38,851 nucleotides of DNA from Planctomycetaceae bacterium (GTDB lineage Bacteria > Planctomycetota > Phycisphaerae > Phycisphaerales > SM1A02): the NCBI GenBank assembly GCA_947441435.1, contig CANETX010000005.1:1-38851 (forward strand), given 5' to 3'. How positions within the stretch are numbered: position 1 is the stretch's first letter; each line of letters starts with the position of its first letter. Shown piece after piece: positions 33,689 through 38,780 of this stretch. The position numbers and the translations under genes were made by a program. The notes under the pieces were generated by a model. The model was not told the DNA's origin. It made no database searches and saw only the letters and a list, made by a program, of their open reading frames with translations.

Positions 33689-36600
33689 GTGGCAACGTTT
33701 CTCGGCGAACTTGATCGGCGCACGCTCCTCTTCGACGGGGCGATGGGGACCTCCATCCATGCCTGCGCCGATTGCCGCAGCGAGGACTGGCTCGGCCGCG
33801 AGAACTGCACGGACATTCTGGTGCGTTCGCGTCCGGACCTGATCGGGCGGATCCACGAAGGATTCCTTGCGGTTGGCGCGGATGTCGTCGAGACCGACAC
33901 CTTCGGTTCCAATCGACTCGTCGCAGCCGAGTTCGATGCAGAGATGGCCTCTTGGGCGCGGGAACTGAATGTGACCGCCGCCCGCATCGCGCGCGCGGCG
34001 TGCGATCGACACGCGACTCCGGGTCGCCCGCGATTCGTGGCGGGGTCAATGGGTCCGGGGACGAAACTCATCACGCTTGGGCAGACTTCGTGGGCGACGA
34101 TGCTCGCCTCCTACCGCGAACAGGCGTCGGGGCTGATCGAGGGCGGGGTCGATTGCCTCATCATCGAGACCTGCCAGGATCTCCTCCAGATCAAGTGTGC
34201 CGTCACGGCGTGTCTGGAGGCGATCGAACACGCGGGGAAGTCGGTGCGCGATATTCCTGTCCTCGTCTCCGTCACCATGGAGACGAGTGGAACAACTCTC
34301 GTCGGCTCAGACATGACAGCAGTCGTGAACGCGCTGCAACCCTTCCCGATCGCTTCGCTGGGGATCAACTGCGCGACCGGGCCGGTCGAGATGGCACCGC
34401 ATGTCGACTTCCTCTCCAAGCACTGGGACCGCCCGTTTTCGGTGATTCCCAACGCCGGACTGCCGATCCTCGTCGAGGGTCGCACGGAGTACCCGCTGCG
34501 TCCCGCTGACTTCACGATCGCCATGCGACGCTTCCTCGAGGAGAGCCGGGCCGAAATCGTCGGCGGATGCTGCGGCACGACGACTGCGCATATCGAGGCG
34601 CTGCGCGAAGCGGTCCCGCTGGCAACGCGAGCGTCGCGGCGGACCTCCCAGTCTCCTCCGCCGGGATGTTCGAGCCTCTACACCGCCACGGAGTTCCGGC
34701 AGGAGAGTTCGTTCCTGATCGTGGCCGAGCGCACCAACGCCAACGGATCGCGAAAGTTCAAGACCCTGCTCGATGCGGAAGATTGGGACGGCCTCGGCTC
34801 GATGGCCAAGGAGGAGGTGCGCGACGGATCGCACGTGCTCGATGTGTGCGTCGACTTCGTCGGTCGCAACGGCGTCACAGACATGGCGAACACGATCGCG
34901 AGGTTCGCAACGCAAGTGAACGCCCCCTTGATGATCGACTCGACGCAGGCGGATGTCCTGGAGGCCGGCCTGCAGGCGGCACCCGGGCGCTGCATCGTCA
35001 ACTCGATCAATCTCGAAGATGGCGAGGAGCGGATGAACCAGGTCTGCCCGCTGCTCAAGCGCTACGGGGCCGCGTGCGTCGCGCTGACGATCGATGAGGA
35101 CCCGCAGGCGGGGATGGCCAAGACCGCCGTGCGCAAACTGGCCATCGCCACGCGGATCCACGATCTCTTCACGCGGAAGTGGGGGCTCGACGAGTGCGAT
35201 CTCTTCTGGGATCCGCTCACCTTCACGATCGCCACCGGCAACGACGAGGATCGGCGACTCGGCCTCGAGACGCTTGAAGGGATCCGCCTCATTTCCGAGG
35301 CGTTCCCGCGCTGTGGCGTGATCCTCGGGCTCTCGAACATCTCGTTTGGCCTGAAGCCAACTGCTCGCGCCGTCCTCAACAGCGTCTTCCTCCATGAAGC
35401 GCGCTCGCGCGGACTGACCGCTGCGATCCTCCACGCCTCGAAGATCCTCCCCGAGGGGAAGATCCCCCGCGAACAGTGGGAGGCGGCGGAGTGGCTCATC
35501 TTCGATCGCCGCGGCGTCCAGCGCCCCGAAGGCAAGCCCGAGGAATTCGACCCGCTCCTGCACTTCATCTCTCTCTTCCCCGACGCTGCCGCAGGATCGG
35601 CTCCCGCAGCCGCTCCGCTTGCGTCGCTCTCCGTCGAAGATCGGCTGCAGCGGCACATCATCGATGGCGAACAGAAGGGGCTTGGCGAGACGCTCGACGA
35701 GGCGCTCACGATCTATCCGCCGCTCACGATCATCAACGATCACCTCCTCGCGGGAATGAAGGTGGTCGGCGAACTCTTCGGCGCGGGGTCCATGCAACTT
35801 CCCTTCGTCCTTCAGAGTGCGACAGTGATGAAGCGCGCCGTCTCGCACCTTGAACCGCACATGGCCAAGGCGGGAGTCGACGCCAAGCCCAAGGGAACAG
35901 TCGTCCTCGCGACCGTCCAGGGGGATGTCCACGACATCGGCAAGAACCTCGTCGACATCATCCTCTCGAACAACGGCTACAAAGTTCACAATCTGGGGAT
36001 CAAGCAGCCGCTGGCCAAGATCCTCGAGGCATGGCGCGAGACCGGCGCGGACGCCATCGGCATGAGCGGATTGCTCGTCAAGAGCGTGACGGTCATGGAA
36101 GAGAGCCTGCGCGAACTCAATCGGCAAGAGATCACCGTGCCCGTGATGCTTGGTGGTGCGGCGCTCACGCGGCACTACGCCGAAGGGCATCTGCGCAAGC
36201 TCTATCGGGGTCCTCTCTACTACGGTCGCGATGCGTTTGAGGGACTCGCGGTGTGCGATGCGCTGTCATCGGCGACGCTTGCGACACTCGACCGCGCGAT
36301 CGAAGCGCGCGAAGCCCGTCGTGCCGCCACCGAGGCGCGGTCGAAGGCAAGCGCACTTCGTCAGGGAGCGGCCTGCGGAACCGCCGGTACCGCCACCGCG
36401 TCGGATCCGCCGACTGCCGCTCCCGCCGTTCTGGTGCGCGACAATCCGATCCCCGATCCGCCCTTCTGGGGATCGCGCCTCGCCGAGCGCATCGACCTCG
36501 ACCTCCTCTATCCCTATGTGAACAAGATCGCGCTGTTCAGGGGGCAGTGGGGGTTCAAGCGCGGCGCGATGGATGACGCGGCGTACGCAGAGCTGCTGGC

Positions 36601-37243
36601 AACTGAGGTGGAGCCCGCGTTCGAACGGCTCAAGGTCGAGTGCCGTCGCGAGAAGATCCTCCGGCCTGCGGTTGTCTGGGGCTATTTCCCCTGCAACAGC
36701 GACGGCAACGATGTTGTCGTGTTCGATCCTGTCGACCAGCACCGCGAAGTCGAGCGATTCACCTTCCCGCGGCAGAAGAGCGGGCGAGGAATCGCGATCG
36801 CAGACTTCTACCTGCCGCTCGCGTCGGGCCGCCGCGATGTCTTCGCGCTCACCTGCGTCACCATGGGAACCGAGGCGTCCACCCGCGCGCGTGCCCTCTT
36901 CGAGCGCGACGAGTACACCGAGTACCTCTACCTCCACGGGATGGGCGTCGAGTGCGCTGAGGCGCTGGCCGAACTCTGGCACAAGCGCATCCGCGCCGAA
37001 CTTGGGTTCGCTCACGAGGACGATCCTTCCGTCGAGCGCCTGTTCCAGCAGCGATATCGAGGGAGTCGATTCTCCTTCGGATATCCCGCCTGCCCGGAGA
37101 TGGCCGATCAGGCCAAGCTCTTCGCGCTCCTTGAGCCCGGACGCATCGGCTGCACGCTCACGGAGAACTATCAGATCGACCCGGAGCAGTCGACGAGCGC
37201 CATCGTCGCACATCATCCGCAGGCCAAGTACTTTTCCGTCTGA
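33689..37243 (+). CDS. metH: Cobalamin-dependent methionine synthase
   Basis: A 1184-residue enzyme that moves the methyl group of methyltetrahydrofolate to homocysteine via B12. The modules are in normal order. The homocysteine domain (about 1-310) has LLFDGAMGT, cysteine 227 in NCATGP and GGCCGTT (about 290-296) as zinc ligands. The pterin domain begins about 340 (VAERTNANGSRKF). The B12 domain has DVHDIGKNL (about 747-755), whose histidine binds cobalt, and GMSGLLVKS. The C-terminal reactivation domain binds SAM (RFSFGYPACPEMADQ, about 1125). An Ala/Pro linker precedes it. GTG 33689 gives a full-length N-terminus; no close Shine-Dalgarno sequence is seen. The CrcB-like gene begins on the next base after the stop. 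Confidence 0.97.
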   Translation: MATFLGELDRRTLLFDGAMGTSIHACADCRSEDWLGRENCTDILVRSRPDLIGRIHEGFLAVGADVVETDTFGSNRLVAAEFDAEMASWARELNVTAARIARAACDRHATPGRPRFVAGSMGPGTKLITLGQTSWATMLASYREQASGLIEGGVDCLIIETCQDLLQIKCAVTACLEAIEHAGKSVRDIPVLVSVTMETSGTTLVGSDMTAVVNALQPFPIASLGINCATGPVEMAPHVDFLSKHWDRPFSVIPNAGLPILVEGRTEYPLRPADFTIAMRRFLEESRAEIVGGCCGTTTAHIEALREAVPLATRASRRTSQSPPPGCSSLYTATEFRQESSFLIVAERTNANGSRKFKTLLDAEDWDGLGSMAKEEVRDGSHVLDVCVDFVGRNGVTDMANTIARFATQVNAPLMIDSTQADVLEAGLQAAPGRCIVNSINLEDGEERMNQVCPLLKRYGAACVALTIDEDPQAGMAKTAVRKLAIATRIHDLFTRKWGLDECDLFWDPLTFTIATGNDEDRRLGLETLEGIRLISEAFPRCGVILGLSNISFGLKPTARAVLNSVFLHEARSRGLTAAILHASKILPEGKIPREQWEAAEWLIFDRRGVQRPEGKPEEFDPLLHFISLFPDAAAGSAPAAAPLASLSVEDRLQRHIIDGEQKGLGETLDEALTIYPPLTIINDHLLAGMKVVGELFGAGSMQLPFVLQSATVMKRAVSHLEPHMAKAGVDAKPKGTVVLATVQGDVHDIGKNLVDIILSNNGYKVHNLGIKQPLAKILEAWRETGADAIGMSGLLVKSVTVMEESLRELNRQEITVPVMLGGAALTRHYAEGHLRKLYRGPLYYGRDAFEGLAVCDALSSATLATLDRAIEAREARRAATEARSKASALRQGAACGTAGTATASDPPTAAPAVLVRDNPIPDPPFWGSRLAERIDLDLLYPYVNKIALFRGQWGFKRGAMDDAAYAELLATEVEPAFERLKVECRREKILRPAVVWGYFPCNSDGNDVVVFDPVDQHREVERFTFPRQKSGRGIAIADFYLPLASGRRDVFALTCVTMGTEASTRARALFERDEYTEYLYLHGMGVECAEALAELWHKRIRAELGFAHEDDPSVERLFQQRYRGSRFSFGYPACPEMADQAKLFALLEPGRIGCTLTENYQIDPEQSTSAIVAHHPQAKYFSV

Positions 37244-38071
37244 GTGGCGGACCTCTCAACCGAAAACCTGACTCTGCATCTCGTGCTGCTGGCCGCGATT
37301 GGCGGTGGCATCGGCTCTTGCGTGCGGGTCGTCGTCCGCGACGAGGTGGTGGCACGCGGGCACGCGAGTTGGCGTGCGACCCTTGCCGTCAACATCGTCG
37401 GTTGCGCCATCGCGATTCCGTGCATGGCCTTGGCGGTGGGCACGACCGAGTGGGCGCTCGTCGTCGCGGGGGCGCTAGGCGGGTTCACAACCTTCAGTGC
37501 ATTTGCCATCGAGACGCTCGCGATGTGGATGTCGAGGCGGCGCGCAGGCAACGGGCCGGCCGATGGCGGCGGCAAGTGGGCGGCCGCGCTTCCGGATCGG
37601 CGAGTGCCGCACTACCTGCGGGGATTCGCCCTCATCTTCGTCGGGGCGATGGTGGGCTGCGCCCTGCGGACATGGCTAGATCTTGCGGCCCTCGGATCGG
37701 GACAGCCGATGTGGACGGCAACACTCGTCGCCAATGTCGCGGGCAGCACGGTCGCGGGGATTGCGTTCCGATGGCTCCACGCGGTCGGTGCCGATGGTGC
37801 ACCGCTGCGATCGCCTCTCCATCGACTGCTCCTCGAGCGTGCGACGATCCTCGGGTTCGCAGGGGGGCTCACCTCGATGAGCGCACTGGCGACCGATCTC
37901 GTCGGCGCGGCACGATCAAGTGCGTGGCTCTTTGCGCTGATCGCGTGCGCAAACCTCGTCCTCGGCCTCGCGGGAGCCGCGCTTGGATGGTGGATCGCCG
38001 CGAGGGTGGCGAGGCACCGTCCGCCATGGGAGACTCTCCTCATCCCGCCGAGGAGCCGCAAACATGAGTGA
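37244..38071 (+). CDS. crcB: Fused two-domain CrcB/Fluc fluoride channel
   Basis: A 275-residue membrane protein with two CrcB/Fluc repeats. Repeat 1 has GGGIGSCVR, N50 in TLAVNIVG and GGFTTFSAF (79-87). Repeat 2 has VGAMVGCALR, N164 in TLVANVAG and GGLTSMSAL (207-215). Normal Fluc has four helices and works as an antiparallel dimer. Repeat 1 here has only three helices; the fourth is replaced by an Arg-rich polar linker (about 97-127). Repeat 2 has four. With seven helices and positive loops all on one side, the repeats should be antiparallel in one chain. Repeat 2 has lost the conserved phenylalanines. GTG 37244 follows the metH stop directly. The next gene overlaps its end by 8 bases. Confidence 0.85.
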   Translation: MADLSTENLTLHLVLLAAIGGGIGSCVRVVVRDEVVARGHASWRATLAVNIVGCAIAIPCMALAVGTTEWALVVAGALGGFTTFSAFAIETLAMWMSRRRAGNGPADGGGKWAAALPDRRVPHYLRGFALIFVGAMVGCALRTWLDLAALGSGQPMWTATLVANVAGSTVAGIAFRWLHAVGADGAPLRSPLHRLLLERATILGFAGGLTSMSALATDLVGAARSSAWLFALIACANLVLGLAGAALGWWIAARVARHRPPWETLLIPPRSRKHE

Positions 38072-38780
38072 CGCACCCGCCGCACGATCTCCCACCCATC
38101 TCCCGCAGATGACTGCGGCGCTCTTGCGCGCACCCTGGAAGGAGCGCCGCGACTCCTACGCCGAGGCGCATCTCTACGAAGATGTGCGGATCCGGGTCCA
38201 TCGGTCGCTCACATGGATGGAGAAGGCCGAGTCGCGAGGCGATGCCGACGCGGACACGGCACTCATCGAATGGTGGGCGGCGGCATCGGCTCTCTTCTCG
38301 CGGGTGAGCGCGGTCACGCAGCAGCCGCTCGCCGATCGCGAGGCTTCGCTCTCCTTCTCAAGGCAGATCGTGCAGTGGGATCGTGATGGCACTCTCACCT
38401 CTGTGCTGCACACGCTCGCGGGCGAGGCGATGGCGATGTGGAACGACCCGTATCTCACACGAGCGTTCGGGCTCGGCTTGAAGGCGGCCTTGGCGAGCGA
38501 GCAAGCGGGGGGATCAGAAACGCGCGCGCCGTCCGCGGCACCGTTGGCCGCACCTCCTGAGGATGGGGCACTGCGCCTCGCGGGAATCCTCGAACGCGCA
38601 GGTCTCACAGTCAGGCAGCTGACGCTCGGCGCGGCGAGTTACGGCGGTGCTCAAAACCGTGAAGCGGTCGCGCGTTCACGCCGAGCGCTCGCGGCGCTTC
38701 TGCCTGCGCTGCTGCAGGTCATCACCGAGCACGGCTATGTCGACGACTGGGGAACGCTCTGCTCGGCGCCGCGCGCCTGA
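38064..38780 (+). CDS. Hypothetical soluble protein
   Basis: A 238-residue protein without signal or membrane helix, mostly helical (LLRAPWKERRDSYAEAHLYED, ALIEWWAAASALFSRVS), with an Ala/Pro-rich linker near residue 155 and a second helical part (ALRLAGILERAGLTVRQL). I do not recognise the family. ATG 38064 overlaps the CrcB-like stop by 8 bases and is preceded by AGGAG (38051-38055) with 8-base spacing, so it is very likely a real gene translated with crcB and metH. The frame extends upstream to 37983 only as an overlap with crcB. A 39-nt palindrome follows 8 bases after its stop. Confidence 0.72.
   Translation: MSDAPAARSPTHLPQMTAALLRAPWKERRDSYAEAHLYEDVRIRVHRSLTWMEKAESRGDADADTALIEWWAAASALFSRVSAVTQQPLADREASLSFSRQIVQWDRDGTLTSVLHTLAGEAMAMWNDPYLTRAFGLGLKAALASEQAGGSETRAPSAAPLAAPPEDGALRLAGILERAGLTVRQLTLGAASYGGAQNREAVARSRRALAALLPALLQVITEHGYVDDWGTLCSAPRA

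Follow-up and report, generated by a model that had tools for sequence, protein, structure and literature searches.

A single open reading frame that carries two CrcB repeats, the first of them one helix short, raises the question of how a bacterium could place both halves of a fluoride channel in one chain, and whether the loss of a helix was what turned the halves against each other. Fluc channels are a model for dual-topology dimers turning into inverted repeats. Bacterial Flucs are described as homodimers or as products of paired genes (PMC11139923), and fusing subunits with an even number of helices is held to require the insertion of a helix (PMC9574504). Fused Flucs were described in eukaryotes, with a helix captured as inversion linker, and the excerpt of that account used here names none in bacteria (PMC3755343); a bacterial single-chain CrcB was also not found in the open-access PMC literature by title or abstract. 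We analysed such a gene in one window, by which we mean the whole 38,851-nucleotide stretch presented above, and we judge it moderately probable that a fusion, followed by loss of helix 4, gave a 3+4 single-chain CrcB/Fluc with antiparallel halves and one repeat 2 pore at most.

The fused gene was found between two other open reading frames of the same strand.

33689..37243, + strand: upstream ORF, 1184 aa, putatively metH-like (ORF list and sequence)
37244..38071, + strand: fused two-repeat CrcB gene, 275 aa, stop included (ORF and Pfam)
38064..38780, + strand: downstream ORF, 238 aa (ATGAGTGA), overlapping the crcB stop (ORF list)

The metH-like label was read from the sequence of the upstream product. 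The crcB frame opened with GTG immediately 3' of the upstream stop, with no gap, and contained no internal stops. The downstream ORF gave zero Pfam matches; an ORF similar to it was also present in G014, a genome of the same genus in which crcB was deleted. Rfam families were not found in the window, and among 19 genomes of the genus no fluoride riboswitch exceeded the cut-off, the one match, in G017, being sub-threshold. In the window's own genome (G000), a MAG that is 83% complete, the fused gene was the sole CrcB found, and the contig ended 780 bases from it.

The Pfam family CRCB (PF02537, profile length 103) matched the 275-aa product twice. The first match (aa 15-98) covered profile positions 1-79 of 103, with helix 4 missing, and the match in repeat 2 covered positions 2-103 of 103. 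The whole protein scored 98.6 bits (E 3e-28) against a gathering cut-off of 32.9, which both halves also exceeded when scored singly (57.6 and 53.2 bits), while its TIGR00494 score of 73.8 bits lay below the equivalog cut-off of 80.45. Hydropathy was scanned in 19-residue windows, with cut-offs of 1.1, 1.2 and 1.3 applied to all proteins; the product showed seven segments at 1.2 and six at 1.3, because repeat 2 helix 2 scores 1.27. By Pfam, structure model and hydropathy, repeat 2 had the four helices of a CrcB/Fluc subunit and repeat 1 had three, in the following arrangement.

37271..37324, + strand: repeat 1 helix 1 (aa 10-27), GGGIGxxxR motif (hydropathy, model, Pfam; approximate boundaries)
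37376..37435, + strand: repeat 1 helix 2 (aa 45-64), carrying Asn50 (hydropathy, model, alignment)
37451..37528, + strand: repeat 1 helix 3 (aa 70-95) (hydropathy, model)
37529..37618, + strand: basic hydrophilic loop (aa 96-125) in place of repeat 1 helix 4 (hydropathy, charge, relatives)
37619..37666, + strand: repeat 2 helix 1 (aa 126-141), GxxxGxxxR (hydropathy, model)
37712..37768, + strand: repeat 2 helix 2 (aa 157-175), carrying Asn164, the weakest segment (hydropathy, model)
37841..37903, + strand: repeat 2 helix 3 (aa 200-220) (hydropathy, model)
37922..37999, + strand: repeat 2 helix 4 (aa 227-252) (hydropathy, model, alignment)

The hydropathy rule can miss a helix; the absence of repeat 1 helix 4 was shared by the Pfam match and the model. 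At cut-off 1.2, 48 of 51 unfused CrcB controls gave four segments and 3 gave three; these controls were drawn from 85 scan hits after exclusion of 34, of which 29 had frames longer than 150 aa and 5 were fusions. At the same cut-off, 15 of the 16 fused relatives of the genus gave eight segments and one (L016) gave six. No hydrophobic segment was found between aa 90 and 126 of the window protein at cut-off 1.2, and the best 19-mer starting at aa 92-112 reached only -0.02, indicating that a linker helix of the type that inverts the second half of the eukaryotic FEX proteins is absent after repeat 1. A hidden helix was likewise not found in the six reading frames of 37521-37640 (best 0.28). The TM1 GxxxR, TM2 Asn and TM3 GGxTxxS motifs were present in both halves, as G24/R28, N50 and G79, G80, T82, S85 in repeat 1 and as G138/R142, N164 and G207, G208, T210, S213 in repeat 2, and were invariant in a 17-row alignment (A1). 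An Asn in repeat 2 helix 4 is a candidate for the polar track.

These results bear out the initial annotation in its reading of two CrcB repeats in one frame, the first with three helices and the second with four, and in its placement of the Arg/Lys-rich loops on one side of a seven-helix model with the N-terminus outside. In that model, whose helix ends we set ourselves, 20 Lys and Arg residues fell inside (loops 28-44, 96-125, 176-199 and the C-terminus) and 2 outside. The loop replacing helix 4 was hydrophilic and basic, as expected for a cytoplasmic loop. The two halves carried opposite charge bias in all 17 fused proteins of the genus, as is reported for antiparallel Fluc twins (PMC3755343). 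Helix parity and charge together predict that the halves of the window protein are antiparallel.

Structure modelling, which had been put forward as the check on both helix number and fold, spoke to the number. The AlphaFold model of the window protein contained seven helices (6-37, 42-65, 68-101, 120-152, 156-179, 191-225 and 227-257) and two extra four-residue turns at the C-terminus, at low confidence (pLDDT 56, pTM 0.51), and was too weak to establish antiparallel packing or the placement of repeat 1. Its best 20 Foldseek matches were all Fluc-Ec2 chains, at E 0.09 and above. By VIA-align, the repeat 2 region of the model (125-257) aligned with Fluc chain 7kkr_A at Z 12.9 (rmsd 2.3, 122 residues aligned), the first unrelated match having Z 7.9. 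FEX was absent among the matches listed for this model, which counts neither for nor against a FEX fold. L082, a fused relative that has helix 4, was modelled at pLDDT 74 and pTM 0.74, and residues 1-270 aligned with the single-chain FEX 9op1_C at Z 22.7 (rmsd 4.5, 253 aligned; Foldseek E 7.5e-4). The alignments used for modelling (A3 and A4) had five rows each and took in only 4 of the 16 fused relatives. A larger alignment with 24 unfused CrcB sequences (A2) was discarded because MAFFT had aligned the single proteins with repeat 1 over helices 1-3 but with repeat 2 over helix 4, an arrangement that would couple the wrong parts.

The relatives of the gene indicated when the helix was lost. 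Among the 19 genomes of the genus, the window's own included, 18 matched the protein, 17 of them above the Pfam cut-off, and 17 had both repeats in one stop-free frame (16 of the 18 others). In the family survey, CrcB was found in 135 of 181 genomes, and outside the genus the matches looked at were single genes or neighbouring pairs. In the class survey, 212 of 397 genomes matched, with one-frame fusions only in genus members among the matches listed. G082 appeared as a fusion outside the genus, since both of its hits were listed with a 304-aa frame, and was rejected, as it actually has two separate ORFs. The fused relatives with records, all MAGs, were L082 (CAMAXY010000004.1), L083 (SIAP01000023.1), L084 (VGXN01000039.1) and L085 (SYGP01000002.1); one of these records is, by its title, from deep Lake Baikal.

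In a tree of 64 repeats, whose few columns leave the deep forks weak, every repeat 1 sequence fell into a single group (92/88, short of the starred level) and every repeat 2 sequence into a second (99/88, starred). The repeat 2 group adjoined the unfused B genes of neighbouring pairs in the sister genus g18 (91/81, below the starred level), and the repeat 1 group adjoined an unfused gene of G133 (85/78, below the starred level). The window and G004 were sisters in repeat 2 (97/92, starred); in repeat 1 the window was the first branch of the group, by path next to G004. In two unfused g18 pairs (L020 and L192) the gene order was A then B, and the A gene of L020 already carried the helix-4 motif T-xx-G-x-P. 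The fusion common to the genus is probably a single event, and the tree and the gene order of the sister genus support a probable descent from an older neighbouring A-B pair, in which A became repeat 1 and B repeat 2.

The hydrophobic segment of helix 4 was retained in 16 of 16 fused relatives and absent from the window protein. The stretch from the repeat 1 box Ser to the Gly of repeat 2 measured 68-83 residues in the relatives and 50 in the window protein, which is 18-33 fewer, in frame. In four relatives (L005, L013, L014 and L018) the helix-4 region was short, Ala/Gly/Pro-rich and set between basic residues, and looked re-entrant. Because all 16 relatives keep helix 4, and given the position of the window in the tree, the helix was lost in the window lineage, after the fusion. 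The deletion has so far been seen in that lineage only, in one MAG, and the homologs sharing the 3+4 layout that the initial annotation had proposed to search for were not found among the 19 genus genomes. Its interpretation stood in part. What held was the outcome, a clean 3+4 chain whose halves are predicted from charge to be antiparallel, in contrast to the 4+1+4 layout of FEX; its central proposal, that helix deletion was this bacterium's solution to the topology problem, was not supported. As judged from the sequences compared, the deletion did not solve the topology problem of the fusion: the fusion is older, and since all 17 fusions are already charge-opposed, the deletion came later and was not the topology solution.

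The two Phe boxes bear on which pores could conduct.

37487..37504, + strand: repeat 1 Phe box TTFSAF (aa 82-87), F84 being F80-type and F87 F83-type of Fluc-Ec2 (sequence; mapping from PMC5636608 and PMC5417652)
37871..37888, + strand: repeat 2 Phe-box position TSMSAL (aa 210-215), M212 being F80-type and L215 F83-type (sequence)

Both boxes were as first annotated, with the two Phe of a CrcB/Fluc box in repeat 1 and Met and Leu in their places in repeat 2. The accompanying suggestion that this asymmetry leaves one pore dead was not upheld. Each pore takes one Phe per domain (PMC4969038, PMC5417652), and a FEX pore, lined by helices 1, 2 and 4 of one domain, combines the second Phe of that domain with the first of the other (PMC5417652). 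As both halves contribute Phe to each pore, the Met and Leu of repeat 2 touch both pores. The asymmetry was also present in the unfused g18 pairs, in which boxes TTFSGF or TTFSGC were paired with TTLSAL, and is probably older than the fusion.

By this mapping, the repeat 1 pore of the window protein would have F87 and M212, without helix 4, and the repeat 2 pore would have helix 4 and F84, but L215. In Fluc-Ec2, F80M was active, while F83L and F83M were inactive (PMC5636608). Since L215 occupies the position of the inactive F83L, even the repeat 2 pore would be unorthodox, and neither putative pore is orthodox. In all 16 relatives, repeat 2 lacked a Phe at its F83-type position, so this divergence is genus-wide. 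F87 was unique to the window among the 17 fusions; the others had Met or, once, Leu.

We propose that the gene product would be a single-chain membrane protein of the CrcB/Fluc fold. The ancestor of the genus would have had an adjacent A-B pair, encoding an antiparallel heterodimer of fixed orientation, which was fused into one frame. In the window lineage, an in-frame loss, evident from the 16 relatives, then removed repeat 1 helix 4 and left a basic loop of 30 residues, predicted to be cytoplasmic, in a protein that would have seven helices with the N-terminus outside, the C-terminus inside and repeat 2 inverted relative to repeat 1. Without helix 4, the pore lined by repeat 1 would lose its polar track. 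Fluoride, if it still passes, would use the single pore of repeat 2 helices 1, 2 and 4, comparable to the one working pore of FEX, and export would be passive and driven by the membrane potential, by analogy with Flucs (PMC11139923).

The main rival to this explanation is that the gene is in early decay: the lineage would be in the course of losing it, with helix-4 loss as a step that abolished function and the frame not yet broken. In G014, whose upstream protein is 84% identical to that of the window, the fused crcB was nearly all deleted after the upstream stop, with about 35 last codons left (L075:5285-5400); in G015 (L080; genome 85% complete), no crcB was found 3' of the metH-like gene and no CrcB match genome-wide. 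The near-complete loss in the one and the absence in the other indicate that the gene is dispensable nearby. In all 16 relatives, the segment lost from the window protein contained a conserved Thr and, near its middle, a Pro, suggesting that it mattered there. A CLC homolog, at the level of a PF00654 match, was found in 12 of the 19 genus genomes, including the window's, G014 and G015, and was absent from G004; the copy in the window's genome was as follows.

G000:C6:20026-21141: CLC-family homolog, open frame of 631 aa (PF00654 match)

Against decay, the frame, the start and the tight spacing to both neighbours were intact, and the new loop had the hydrophilic, basic character of a cytoplasmic one. 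Of the positions invariant in the other 16 fusions, the window protein kept 34 of 37, comprising all 17 of those in repeat 2 and 17 of the 20 in repeat 1, and departed by S54 to C and G58 to I in repeat 1 helix 2 and by the lost helix-4 Thr; G004, for comparison, departed at 4 of 38. Differences between the window and G004 were most frequent at third codon positions (0.41/0.29/0.62), although these values mix both branches and are compatible with recent relaxation. The end branch of the window was not consistently longer than that of G004 (0.51 vs 0.37 in repeat 1, 0.49 vs 0.58 in repeat 2). We consider early decay unlikely, and channel function of the window protein putative.

A further reading concerns the whole genus: the repeat 1 helix-4 segment may be re-entrant or disrupted in every fusion, so that all would be topologically 3+4 and the window would have dropped a non-crossing hairpin. 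Each of the 16 relatives had basic residues on either side of the segment (2-3 ahead of it and 2-4 behind) and a Pro within it, and in the four shortest relatives the box Ser lay 68-72 residues from the Gly of repeat 2, a distance judged too small for two more full crossings. The L082 model, however, drew 93-121 as a kinked helix (93-104 and 106-121, with a one-residue break) that fits the FEX alignment and left a disordered linker (122-139) to cross, and 2 of 16 relatives gave nine segments at the laxer cut-off of 1.1. The eight-segment relatives would have either a crossing linker or a re-entrant segment, and the spacing favours re-entry in the four shortest. We place a genus-wide re-entrant segment slightly short of an even chance; it complements rather than opposes fusion followed by helix loss. 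It is most improbable that the gene is an ordinary parallel fusion, or that a frameshift or misassembly hides helix 4. The layout is known from a single genome, close to a contig end, but the six-frame scan revealed no hydrophobic stretch, residues are missing between fixed points of an otherwise cleanly running frame, and the halves are oppositely charged. Parallel fused Fluc constructs, moreover, showed minimal activity (PMC3755343).

Comparison with known systems sets the window protein apart from each of them. FEX (e.g., of Candida albicans, PDB 9op1) likewise has two CrcB domains in one chain, a predicted antiparallel fold and asymmetric pores. It differs in being 4+1+4 with an inversion-linker helix, whereas the bacterial window protein is 3+4, without linker helix or repeat 1 helix 4, and in carrying the F83-type Phe in repeat 2, which in the window protein is in repeat 1. 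Heterodimeric Fluc pairs (La1/La2; L020, L192) share the two homologous subunits, in A-then-B order in L020 and L192, and represent the probable ancestral type by the tree, but in the described cases consist of two genes with four helices each. Homodimeric Flucs (Ec2, Bpe) share the fold of repeat 2 and the TM1, TM2 and TM3 motifs, but consist of separate four-helix subunits of dual topology, with four Phe distributed over the two pores.

A second candidate for a single-chain seven-helix Fluc was found in Methylomicrobium by genome scan and Pfam.

L116:5022-5726: fused CrcB of 235 aa, 4+3 layout, Methylomicrobium sp. RS1 (genome scan and Pfam)

Like the window protein, it has one chain, seven segments and halves predicted by parity to be antiparallel, but it lost repeat 2 helix 1 instead of repeat 1 helix 4. 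We give an even chance to the view that antiparallel single-chain Flucs arose in bacteria at least twice by subtraction of a helix at the junction (3+4 and 4+3), with the window protein left with at most one conducting pore. Helix subtraction may offer a natural way for inverted repeats to form, and in fused Flucs it was absent from the portions of the literature covered (PMC3755343, PMC9574504). If this is true, nature would supply the opposite of linker capture in the single-chain genus, its 3+4 member and the widespread 4+3 family, and with them small natural single-chain channels, one pore perhaps already removed.

The CrcB match in repeat 2 of L116 began at profile position 20, lacked helix 1 and scored 25.0 bits alone (E 2.5e-5), below the cut-off of 32.9; the whole protein scored 112.2. 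Repeat 2 shared 42% identity with repeat 1 of the same chain and at most 41% with unfused CrcB of its class, similar values that favour no one origin of the fusion. When the class was searched with repeat 2, 78 of 143 genomes matched, and by the table a one-frame fusion occurred only in G205, its own genome, among the matches listed. Loop charges in the Methylomicrobium family were balanced (e.g., 0,1,2,1,1,2,0,1), so orientation is not set by charge and antiparallel halves are predicted from parity alone. The 25 proteins read (L162-L186, the best 25 of 110) all had seven segments at every cut-off tried; beyond these 25, the 4+3 layout is taken from match length. Among 121 sampled genomes of the family, 110 matched, 106 of them near full length (the exceptions being G284, G325, G318 and G296), and G269, one of the 106, had two copies, one with two stops and one without.
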